Below, piece by piece: positions 49,260 to 59,795 of a stretch of 64,000 bases of DNA (position 1 is its first letter; every line of letters starts with the position of its first letter). The stretch covers positions 23,664 to 87,663 of the forward strand of contig JAHFJP010000001.1 of the NCBI GenBank assembly GCA_023245765.1. Reading direction: 5' to 3'. The notes below the pieces were generated by a model that had not been told where the DNA came from, did no database searches, and saw only the letters and a program-made list of their open reading frames with translations. The stretch comes from Candidatus Peribacteria bacterium (GTDB taxonomy: Bacteria; Patescibacteriota; Gracilibacteria; Peribacterales; Peribacteraceae). Both the position numbers and the translations under genes were made by a program.

Positions 49260-49347
49260 TTCAGGTTTGTCATCCTGAGCGTAGCGAAGGGGCCGTAAGA
49301 ATCCCCTGCTACGAACGTCTTAGTGGCATTCCTTCCCACCTTTTTCT

Positions 49348-51658: not shown

Positions 51659-52609
51659 ATGCCCTCCTGGATCGTTGCCCTTCCGGACAGACTCGATGCG
51701 TTCCTCGGCAGTGACGGGCGCATGCTCAGCCGCGCCAAAGCGCAGAAGGCAATTGAGGATGGGCTGGTCATGGTGAACGACGATGTCGTCACCAAAGCGG
51801 CACACCGGGTGCAGGAGGGGGACAAAGTGAGTCTGGAGTCACTCGGTGAGGAAAAAGAATCAGAGATTGATCCGTGTGACCTGAAACTCACGGTCCTGTA
51901 CGAAGACGCCGCCTGCTTCGTGATCAACAAACCTGCCGGCATTGCCGTGCATCCGGGTGCGGGAATGATGGCTGGGGAGAAAACACTCCTGCACGGCATT
52001 GCCTATCTGTACAAGAAAAAGGGACTCCCCTTCTCCGGAGAATCCGTTCTGGTCCACCGTCTCGATAAAGATACGACGGGGTGTCTCTTGATTGCGAAGA
52101 CGCCGGCAGCGCACCTGTTTCTGCAGCAGCAATTTGAAACCCGGACCGTCCAGAAGACGTACCTTGCACTCGTCGCCGGCGTCCCGGAGCTTGCCACGGC
52201 GACGGTCGACGCACCGATTGGCAGGAGCGTCGGCAACCGCACGAAGATGTCGGTGAATGCGTCGTTCACCAGCCGCGAGGCGCAGACGACATACAGAGTC
52301 ATCGCGTCATCGACCCCTTCGGCCGGCTCAGGGGTCGCGCTGCTCGAGTGCGATCTGCATACCGGGCGGACGCACCAAATCCGCGTGCACCTCCATTCCA
52401 TCGGTCATCCGGTGCTTGGGGACAGTGCGTATGTGAACGCGCTCAGTGAACGGCTGACGCAGGAATTCGATATCCGCAGCGTCTGTCTGCACGCGTGGAA
52501 GCTTACATTCACGTCGCCAGAGGATCAGAAAGAGCATGCGGTAATGGCGCCAGCGCCGCAGACGTTGTTGCGAGCGATAGAGGCGGCGGGGATTGAATGG
52601 AAACAATAG
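51659..52609 (+). CDS. RluA/RluD-family pseudouridine synthase
   Basis: VINKPAGIAVHPGAGM, LVHRLDKDTTGCLLIAKT, LLECDLHTGRTHQIRVHLHSIGHPVLGD. Confidence 0.94.
   Translation: MPSWIVALPDRLDAFLGSDGRMLSRAKAQKAIEDGLVMVNDDVVTKAAHRVQEGDKVSLESLGEEKESEIDPCDLKLTVLYEDAACFVINKPAGIAVHPGAGMMAGEKTLLHGIAYLYKKKGLPFSGESVLVHRLDKDTTGCLLIAKTPAAHLFLQQQFETRTVQKTYLALVAGVPELATATVDAPIGRSVGNRTKMSVNASFTSREAQTTYRVIASSTPSAGSGVALLECDLHTGRTHQIRVHLHSIGHPVLGDSAYVNALSERLTQEFDIRSVCLHAWKLTFTSPEDQKEHAVMAPAPQTLLRAIEAAGIEWKQ
52312..52336. repeat. Intragenic palindromic element GACCCCTTCGGCCGGCTCAGGGGTC
   Basis: Encodes STPSAGSGV inside the RluD-like protein. Confidence 0.65.
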
Positions 52610-52625
52610 GGGTGTTGTCCCTCGT

Positions 52626-52850
52626 TCATCCCTCGTACGAAATCGCTGCGGCGATTTCTACTCGGGATGACAACCGAATGAATCAGGAGCTCCTCGTTAC
52701 GAAAACCGCTCGGCGGTTTTCTACTCGGAGCCCTTCTCTTAACGAGTGTCGCCGAGTAGCTCCGCAGCAGCGGAGCGTATCGAGGCGTTGCTTCAAAAAG
52801 CGTGTTGTCATCCCGAGTAGCTCGCCCGCAGGCGAGCGTACGAGGGATCA
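52626..52850. repeat. Cluster of four modular hairpins
   Basis: Hairpins at 52626-52670, 52689-52731, 52749-52788, 52808-52850 share linkers CGTACGA/CGAGTAG (or reverse complement) with different inner stems. Confidence 0.88.
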
Positions 52851-54560
52851 CTTCGGTTGATACTCCACCGTATACGTCAGCGTATCCAAGATCTCCCCCG
52901 CCTTGTTCCGCGCGACGATCTTGTACGTGTTCTTGCCTTTGCGGAGATTGTTGATCGCCACGTCGACGATGTAGTTCCAGACCGGCTTGCCCGGTTTGTA
53001 GAGCTGCAGCGTGTAGTCGTTGACCGAGATTGTCGCGGTCTGTGGCGATGTGGCGCCGATCAAGAGGAACCCCGTGCCGGTTTCGGTGTGCGAGGTGCCG
53101 GCAGTGGGCAGCTCAATTTTGAGGGAGCCCGGGAGGAGCGGAGCGTTGCTGGGGAGTGTTCCCGGTGCTGTTGACGCAGCGCTGGAGGAGCCCGTGCTGA
53201 CGACGCCGTCGCCACCCTCTCCACCTTGGATGATCGTCAGGCGCGCGGCGGGGCTCTTTTTGCCGGCAGCGTCGAGCGCGAAGACGTCGTAGACGTTGCT
53301 GCCTTCCACCATGTTGCGCAGGCGCAGGCTTGCCACGTAGCTCCACTCCCCTTTCGTCGGCTCAAAAAGTTGCAGCTTGTAATCGTTGACCATCACCCCC
53401 TGCGTTCCCGCAGGCGCTCCGCCACGCAAAATCAACTCCTCGGCGTGTGTGCGGTACACATCCCCCGCGTGCGCCGGGGTGGTGATGGTGGGGGCAGCGA
53501 GTGGTGCGGGTGGCGCGCGCTTGACCGTGCGATGCGCTTCGGCCAGCACGATGCGACCGTCATCGAGCGCCTGGACGGTGATATCAAAGTCGACCTGCCC
53601 ATCCGGTGGTGCCACTTCCTGCGCGAACGTTCGTTTGACCGTATCGAGCAGCGCGGGGTAGCCGTTGACCATGATGCGCGTGACGCTGGCGCCGACCGTG
53701 CCACGGACCATGATGGTTGGGGTGGTGAGAGTGGTGCGGTTCTCCGGTGCGGTGATCGTCAGAATCTCGCCGTTTTCTCCCGCCGACGGAGATGCCGAGG
53801 AGCGGGATGTTCCCGGTCGTGCGGCGAGGAGCAGCGTGCGGCTGTCGGTCACGAATGCCGATCGTGACGCGAGCGGATCGATCGGCGACCGATAAGCGTA
53901 GACGTCGTTGACCTGCGCGTTTGCCGGCAGCAGCCACTGCTGGCCTTCGCTGATCACGAAGGGGTCATGGCCGGAGAGAGTCACGCCGATGCCGTCGCTG
54001 TCGCTGCTGAAGACCGTCACGGATGTCGGCGAAAGTTCGGCTTCTGTTCCTGCTGAAACGGAAAACTCGAGTGTCGGTGACGTGACCGTCCACGCGACAC
54101 TTCCGGTGTAGCTTTTAGGCCCTGCGGTGGCGACCCACAGATTGCCTTGCTGCAGATCGAGCGTGATGCGTGAACTCCTGCTGCCGCGTCCACTCTCGGT
54201 GATGGCGAGTGTCGTTCCGTCATTGAGTCGCACCCGGGATCCGTCGAAAAACTGCAGTGATGCGTGAGCATTCGGCCCCGTACTGACGCTCTCGCCGGGG
54301 AACACCATCATGCCGTTCTCGGCATGCTGCTGCTTGCCATCAATCGAGATGCTCACCGTGCCCCGCTCTTCCACCGCCAAAAACGCCCCGGCGCGTTCGG
54401 TCGAGAACGACACGCCGAGCAGTCGCAAAAACAAGGTCCAGAGAAGGTAGCTCACGAAGAACAGTGCTCCGAGGACGAGCAGGAGCCGCAGCCACCGCGG
54501 GAGTGAATGTTCTTGCGCGAGCGGATACGCGCCGCGCCGGTGGCGGGGACGGAGATACAT
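52848..54560 (-). CDS. FecR-domain membrane protein with repeated Ig-like/Big-type extracellular domains
   Basis: TM segment, then GTVSISIDGKQQHAENGMMVFPGESVSTGPNAHASLQFFDGSRVRLNDGTTLAI (FecR-like). Confidence 0.75.
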   Translation of the reverse strand: MYLRPRHRRGAYPLAQEHSLPRWLRLLLVLGALFFVSYLLWTLFLRLLGVSFSTERAGAFLAVEERGTVSISIDGKQQHAENGMMVFPGESVSTGPNAHASLQFFDGSRVRLNDGTTLAITESGRGSRSSRITLDLQQGNLWVATAGPKSYTGSVAWTVTSPTLEFSVSAGTEAELSPTSVTVFSSDSDGIGVTLSGHDPFVISEGQQWLLPANAQVNDVYAYRSPIDPLASRSAFVTDSRTLLLAARPGTSRSSASPSAGENGEILTITAPENRTTLTTPTIMVRGTVGASVTRIMVNGYPALLDTVKRTFAQEVAPPDGQVDFDITVQALDDGRIVLAEAHRTVKRAPPAPLAAPTITTPAHAGDVYRTHAEELILRGGAPAGTQGVMVNDYKLQLFEPTKGEWSYVASLRLRNMVEGSNVYDVFALDAAGKKSPAARLTIIQGGEGGDGVVSTGSSSAASTAPGTLPSNAPLLPGSLKIELPTAGTSHTETGTGFLLIGATSPQTATISVNDYTLQLYKPGKPVWNYIVDVAINNLRKGKNTYKIVARNKAGEILDTLTYTVEYQPK

Positions 54561-59035: not shown

Positions 59036-59059
59036 ATGTTCCACGGGGGCGTGGAACGT
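59036..59059. repeat. Palindromic element GTTCCAC-GGGGGC-GTGGAAC
   Basis: Between PBP stop and RAYT; related to 15489-15512. Confidence 0.75.
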
Positions 59060-59438
59060 CAAAGATGGCTTTCTGATAAGGAAAATTCATCATCGTTAAA
59101 AGAAAATGTTCTGAGAAGTCTCGACCTTCGATTATTCATGCATACGCTCACGGTATGCATCGCAATATTGAGAACATTCACCATCGGCGGTCGATTCGGT
59201 TGCGTGGGAGAGATTACGCGGAGCCTGGCATGTATTTTGTGACCATTTGCACGGCAAAAACGGGAGACGTGTTCGGCAATGTGCAACGAGGAGAAATGAT
59301 TCTCAACGCGTACGGCATCATTGCAGATGAATGTTGGCGGGTCATACCCGATCATTTTCCGTGGGTTGCCCTCGACGCGTTTGTCATTATGCCGGATCAC
59401 ATGCATGGGATTGTGGAAATCCTTCCGATGCGGGCATG

Positions 59439-59464
59439 TAGGGGCGTTGCATGCAACGCCCCTA
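59439..59464. repeat. Perfect 26-bp palindrome inside RAYT
   Basis: TAGGGGCGTTGCATGCAACGCCCCTA. Confidence 0.95.
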
Positions 59465-59485
59465 GCAAAAATGTCGGGTTCAACG

Positions 59486-59513
59486 GTAGGGGCCGAGCAT
59501 GCTCGGCCCCTAC
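59486..59513. repeat. Perfect 28-bp palindrome inside RAYT
   Basis: GTAGGGGCCGAGCATGCTCGGCCCCTAC. Confidence 0.95.
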
Positions 59514-59795
59514 ATTCCCGAATGGGAATGCAATGCCTCACGGACCAGAGCCACATTCGTTAGGTGCAATCATCCGGTCGTTTAAATCCGCCGTTACCCA
59601 TCGAGTGAATGATCTTCAGGGTGTTTCTGGTCAACAATTTTGGCAACGCAATTATTACGATCGCATTATCCGTTCTCACGATTTGGATGGTGTTCGGCGC
59701 TATATCATGGAAAATCCGAAACGTTGGACGCAAGCTTCAGGTGCTTCGAGCGTTCCAGTTTAAATACTATGGGATTTCGCCGGCATGACTTGGTT

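Follow-up and report, generated by a model that had tools for sequence, protein, structure and literature searches.

Four hairpins, whose joints are constant and whose stems vary but still pair, occupy positions 52628-52848 of the window (the whole 64,000-nucleotide stretch of DNA analyzed, which comes from a genome, G000, of the Candidatus Peribacteraceae, tiny bacteria without cultured members). They are probably one copy of a non-autonomous mobile unit that belongs with the TGTC/CGTC-tagged repeats, and a UPF0213-type GIY-YIG nuclease, encoded beside such repeats, is proposed to process and spread them. The features of the locus are listed in Table 1.

Table 1. Hairpins, neighboring genes and the RAYT-like gene (window positions)
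Feature	Position	Strand or orientation	Composition and evidence
Hairpin 1 (outer unit)	52628-52672	-	TGTC tag; outer stem ATCCC/GGGAT; joint GAGTAG/CGTACGA; inner stem AAATCGC/GCGATTT; covariance-model match G000:C40:76289-76333; folding vs shuffles
Hairpin 2 (inner unit)	52689-52731	-	without TGTC tag; outer stem GCTCC/GGAGC; joint with extra base CGTAACGA; inner stem AAAACCGC/GCGGTTTT; covariance-model match C40:76350-76396; folding vs shuffles
Hairpin 3 (inner unit)	52750-52787	+	without TGTC tag; outer stem CGCC/GGCG; joint CGTATCGA; inner stem CTCCGC/GCGGAG; covariance-model match C40:76410-76453; folding vs shuffles
Hairpin 4 (outer unit)	52806-52848	+	TGTC tag; ATCCC/GGGAT; joint CGTACGA; inner stem CTCGCC/GGCGAG; covariance-model match C40:76471-76513; folding vs shuffles
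Whole four-hairpin unit	52628-52848	- - + +	pitch about 62 bp; recurs in genus
17-nt perfect inverted repeat, left arm	52658-52674		CTACTCGGGATGACAAC; partner 52804-52820
17-nt perfect inverted repeat, right arm	52804-52820		
RluA-family pseudouridine synthase gene (left neighbor)	51659-52609	+	stop at 52609
FecR-domain protein gene (right neighbor, convergent)	52848-54560	-	stop at 52848-52850
RAYT-like Y1 transposase gene	59155-59763	+	own GTAG palindromes at 59438-59464 and 59486-59513

Hairpin family and covariation of its stems

The first-pass annotation had described four hairpins with constant linkers and differing, self-complementary inner stems, two in each orientation between convergent rluD-like and FecR genes; all four were confirmed, as was their placement by the gene positions. 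Folded as single-stranded DNA, each hairpin surpassed its dinucleotide shuffles (z from -3.2 to -4.7), and the stop codon of the FecR gene shares one base with the 3' end of hairpin 4. A lone TGTCATCCTGAGCGTAGCGAAGG at window 49268-49290, directly after an integrase-like gene, is a short TGTC-tagged palindrome without a variable inner stem.

The exact core pattern occurred 14 times in the same genome, compared with 0 occurrences of the reversed pattern. A covariance model (R1) was built from copies of equal length, because the MAFFT alignment had misplaced short stems, and its genome-wide search, a check proposed in the first-pass annotation, revealed further copies, with 34 matches in G000. 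When 59 relatives were searched, genomes of the same genus yielded at least 104 (G001, where 104 candidates were scored), 44 (G002) and 10 (G003) matches and other genera of the family 0-5, and none came from other members of the class. A GTDB-wide scan for the exact core, whose hits were estimated to be mostly chance at that collection size, was used to choose genomes of other phyla.

In an alignment of seven equal-length copies from G000, which was compared with shuffles and slid controls, 100% of the cells of the inner and outer helices were paired, with 23 double-change cells and a covariation of 0.857 (6.7 and 0.27 in shuffles, respectively). Among 135 distinct copies with flanks, 63 different inner stems were found, nearly all of them fully paired; the earlier interpretation of the differing but paired stems as covariation is thus borne out. 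Variation and covariation extend to the outer two base pairs, yCC/GGr (C-G in 87, T-A in 28 and G-C in 18 copies for the first of them), whereas the joint is constant and asymmetric, with 5' GAGTAG opposite 3' CGTA(N)CGA. CGTC/TGTC-tagged REPs are characterized by complementary A and T at the first two stem positions; at the start of the outer stem here, T-A was found at the second position in 91 of the 135 copies, and A-T and A-C at the first position in 43 and 52, respectively. The GAGTAG strand carried 41 G.T pairs versus 4 A.C mismatches, and it is therefore the folded strand; this strand-specific wobble fits RNA as well as single-stranded DNA.

The layout of the outer units was TGTCA-tyCC-GAGTAG-stem-CGTA(N)CGA-GGrA. 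The leading T and the G of the TGTCA preceding them were present in 100 and 101 of 101 units, respectively, and only these two letters count as independent evidence of a tag, since the outer units were defined by a TCA ending. The middle two hairpins of each four-hairpin unit have no TGTC tag. Two further observations concern individual copies. In one hairpin of G000:C41 (L178, 776-834), another short palindrome (TTTATCCCGAGCGAAGCGAGG) is nested in the loop of the inner stem, so repeats can insert into one another's loops. Just beyond an outer hairpin, part of the end sequence (CGTACGAGGGAT or CCCTCGT) is repeated in L168, L171, L163, L160 and the window (52619-52639), possibly through slippage or as a trace of the insertion process.

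Recurrence, gain or loss and inversion of the unit

Both the - - + + units and - + doublets are found repeatedly, with their spacing conserved. The four-hairpin unit was seen again in G000 and numerous times in G001, where many arrays have the order seen in the window and hairpins about 62 bp apart. Inverted repeat units thus recur as one block, as in BIMEs and REPINs, and the REP/BIME-like organization claimed at first pass holds for a dispersed family with covarying stems. The orthologous rluD/FecR junction contains the unit in G000 and G001 and no insert in G002; consequently, the unit has been gained or lost at this site. In the G001 unit, the outer hairpins keep their stems in place, whereas the core matches that of the window with 88% identity in reverse and 71% in forward orientation, and the core has therefore been inverted. 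The core of the window unit is bracketed by the perfect 17-nt inverted repeat, a candidate site for this inversion. The spacers diverge both here and at the suf site of Azospirillum described below, which obscured any target-site duplications.

These data also bear on the possibility that the hairpins are structured RNA elements, namely, terminators or stabilizers of mRNA 3' ends, under selection at gene ends. With gene positions taken from ORFs called by codon scoring, only 4 of 77 copies were called within genes (one or more of the four being a chance match to the pattern), the outer ends of copies frequently lie a few bases from stop codons, and convergent junctions were somewhat over-represented (20 of 65 classified copies versus 59 of 285 in the background); the wobble bias suits RNA equally. 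Nevertheless, selection against insertion into genes would also yield such positions, most stems have no T run, and an Rfam scan of the window returned tRNAs only, leaving the hairpins without a match, while the genus-restricted bursts of near-identical units, the empty orthologous sites and the core inversion argue for mobility. Selection for an RNA function is thus improbable as the main explanation, although an RNA role could be a secondary effect compatible with mobility.

RAYT genes and GIY-YIG nuclease genes beside the repeats

The first pass pointed to a RAYT gene 6 kb away, and the hairpins could accordingly be GTAG REPs mobilized by a RAYT: this gene was confirmed, GTAG stands immediately before the variable stem, and one RAYT can serve many REPs. 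Against this, the GTAG is part of the joint that separates the outer from the inner stem, the tag at the terminus is TGTC, and sister families of the same layout have no GTAG. The hairpin family was absent from the RAYTs examined (window 59155-59763, C54 and the RAYT loci of G001 and G002), and clustering of copies near RAYT genes, for which a test was suggested at first pass, was therefore not seen at the RAYTs of G000, G001 or G002, none of which is flanked by the repeats. The TGTCA tag pattern was found zero times within 200 bp of 21 RAYT loci, the number of tag sites in 36 genomes of the family was unrelated to RAYT presence (p = 0.63), and no RAYT was detected in G003, which has 10 copies, though this genome is 81% complete. 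Both RAYT genes of G000 contain a different GTAG palindrome family inside their reading frames, and the palindrome of the second differs again. Thus, the reported RAYT gene is real, but its link to the hairpins was dropped after the flank and co-occurrence tests, and mobilization by a RAYT is very improbable.

The RAYT genes have palindromes of their own. The in-frame palindromes have the form GTAGGGGC...GCCCCTAC and GTAGAGAC...GTCTCTAC (the two window positions given in Table 1; L016:1699-1727). Many RAYT homologues align as two pieces, residues about 7-89 and 132-193, and therefore, judging by these alignments, in-frame insertion of palindromes at one site of the RAYT protein may be common. 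A separate palindrome, GTTCCACgggggcGTGGAAC, and its variants occur upstream of the RAYT gene (window 59037-59058) and within GIY-YIG cassettes (L177, L179).

A small gene that encodes a GIY-YIG domain is bracketed by the hairpins in G001 and G002. Overall, the hairpins adjoin a standalone gene of the UPF0213-type GIY-YIG family in four genomes, namely, G001 (with two such genes), G002, G005 and G012; the latter two genomes have only 3 and 2 R1 matches, respectively, one of which in each adjoins the GIY-YIG gene. Other GIY-YIG homologues of the Peribacteraceae are flanked by other TGTC-tagged palindromes, and this applies to the closest homologue in G000 itself (C26), which is flanked by a different TGTC palindrome rather than by the exact hairpin family. 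The tag density around the Peribacteraceae GIY-YIG genes was about 3.6 per kb within 200 bp and at most 0.26 beyond 300 bp, and the nuclease was essentially the sole gene shared by 14 Peribacteraceae loci. Counts of TGTCANNYYGAG in 36 genomes of the family were higher where the GIY-YIG subfamily was present (p = 3e-5; p = 2.5e-4 with the genus of G000 left out), these p-values being only indicative because genomes of one family are not independent; G028 and G032 have many tag sites and no member of this subfamily. The nuclease scored 54.6 bits against the Pfam GIY-YIG profile (cut-off 22.6), matched UPF0213 structures (1zg2, E = 7e-12) and had the invariant residues Y6, Y16, G18, R26, H30 and E64; judged from its sequence, it has a GIY-YIG domain with catalytic-type residues. 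In the nuclease cassette L177 (G001:C112), the order is ++ gene --, a polarity opposite to that of the - - + + unit, which looks as if two cassette ends had been joined directly, as at the junction of a tandem or a circle.

The linkage of tagged repeats to the nuclease gene is found across phyla. The 66 standalone GIY-YIG genes sampled came from the 14 Peribacteraceae loci, from 15 records of a plasmid collection and from 20 genomes outside the family, chiefly Sphingomonas and further Alphaproteobacteria, along with Planctomycetota, Chloroflexota, Bacteroidota and Actinomycetota. For comparison, uvrC, long GIY-YIG ORFs, RAYTs and shifted positions were examined. Of the 66 genes, 25 had a tag site on each of their two sides at a distance of up to 250 bp, compared with 1 of 39 control genes (p = 2e-5) and 3 of 126 shifted positions (p = 1e-10), and 43 had one on at least one side, compared with 7 of 39 and 25 of 126, respectively; about a third of the genes (23/66) had no tag site by the strict pattern. 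A strict palindrome test with a 7-nt arm gave a weaker signal (both sides, 13/66 versus 0/39 and 5/126), and the tag motif was used afterwards, because interrupted outer stems suit that test poorly.

Named records with a tag-flanked gene included Azospirillum, Neisseria, Shinella, Planktothrix, Spirosoma, Rhizobium, Aeromonas and others, and many of the flanking sites were textbook CGTC REPs, for example, CGTCATCCCCGCGAAGGCGGGGATCCA in Azospirillum and CGTCATTCCCGCGCAGGCGGGAATC in Neisseria. In Azospirillum lipoferum 4B, the GIY-YIG gene and two REP pairs are located between sufB and sufC, which have no insert in close Azospirillum relatives. A Planctomycetota genome contained 285 copies of TGTCATCCTGAG-[stem]-CGAAGGATC, most of the copies listed having palindromic stems, of several sequences, and therefore the hairpin layout is not peculiar to the Peribacteraceae. 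In total, the repeat-linked nuclease gene was seen in Patescibacteria, Alpha-, Beta- and Gammaproteobacteria, Planctomycetota, Bacteroidota and Cyanobacteria. A search of the open-access literature turned up no paper that connects GIY-YIG nucleases with REPs.

The linkage could also come from the nuclease gene inserting into or beside existing repeats. According to this main rival explanation, the GIY-YIG gene is a selfish passenger that lands safely in tagged palindromes, and the repeats spread otherwise. GIY-YIG domains are common among homing endonucleases, and the repeats also occur in genomes in which no close GIY-YIG homologue was found; moreover, insertion sequences are described as targeting REPs (PMC1525189). 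At the same time, complete repeat pairs, not split halves, flank the gene on both sides in the named records, and within the family the repeat number rises with the presence of the gene. A passenger gene is thus possible but doubtful, and processing of the repeats by the nuclease is preferred.

Proposed mechanism and comparison with known systems

We infer that the GIY-YIG nuclease binds, cleaves and mobilizes the repeats. The tagged strand would fold into a hairpin in single-stranded or supercoiled DNA, and three features would be recognized by the nuclease in combination: this fold, the constant tag and the joint, which is constant and asymmetric. Recognition of this kind would leave the stems free to change while pairing is kept, which would account for stems that vary but stay paired. 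Cleavage would make it possible for the unit to be copied or recombined into new intergenic sites, and the nuclease gene may sometimes be carried between two groups of repeats. According to a broader proposition, small GIY-YIG nucleases that read hairpin shape and tag would operate a mobile system made up of the TGTC/CGTC-tagged palindromic repeats of bacteria in general. Such a system would be a counterpart of RAYT/REP on an unrelated nuclease family, with stems that diversify under a pairing constraint; our confidence in it is about even.

Di Nocera et al. (2013) reported that CGTC elements have no dedicated transposase and that no RAYT gene is flanked by them, and listed the missing transposase as an open question (PMC3733652). 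The linkage suggests a missing partner enzyme for this repeat class, and, with a repeat-linked gene available in several phyla, the question can be addressed with a single protein and a handful of oligonucleotides. If the proposal is correct, it would add a second nuclease family to REP biology, explain the drift of stems with pairing kept and suggest a plausible function for a gene that is very common but carries no annotation beyond GIY-YIG nuclease family protein.

By sequence, the nuclease belongs to the same fold family as UPF0213/YhbQ-type GIY-YIG proteins and SLX1 (URI domain) and has the same conserved residues. SLX1, a related URI-domain enzyme, cuts branched DNA by structure (PMC8287910); unlike in the present proposal, no role in palindromic repeats was found for these proteins in the open-access literature searched.

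On account of the TGTC tag, the repeats are placed with the CGTC/TGTC-tagged REPs, including Rickettsia RPEs and Neisseria dRS3 (PMC3733652). As in those elements, a short palindrome carries a terminal C/TGTC tag (at one end of the outer units here), the many copies are dispersed, mostly extragenic and often dimers in inverted pairs, subfamilies differ by complementary stem changes, and RAYTs are not flanked. The window family differs from them in having a long inner stem that varies freely and lies behind a joint that is constant and asymmetric, as well as in its recurring four-hairpin unit and its inward-pointing tags, and a partner nuclease gene is proposed here, whereas no dedicated transposase was reported for the CGTC REPs (PMC3733652).

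The likeness to GTAG REPs with RAYT/TnpAREP (REPtrons, BIMEs and REPINs) lies in hairpin repeats, inverted pairs moving as units, the folding of one strand and a single-domain nuclease gene flanked by repeats. Unlike in those systems, the nuclease is of the GIY-YIG rather than the HUH/Y1 type, the tag is TGTC, and GTAG is internal and missing in sister families.
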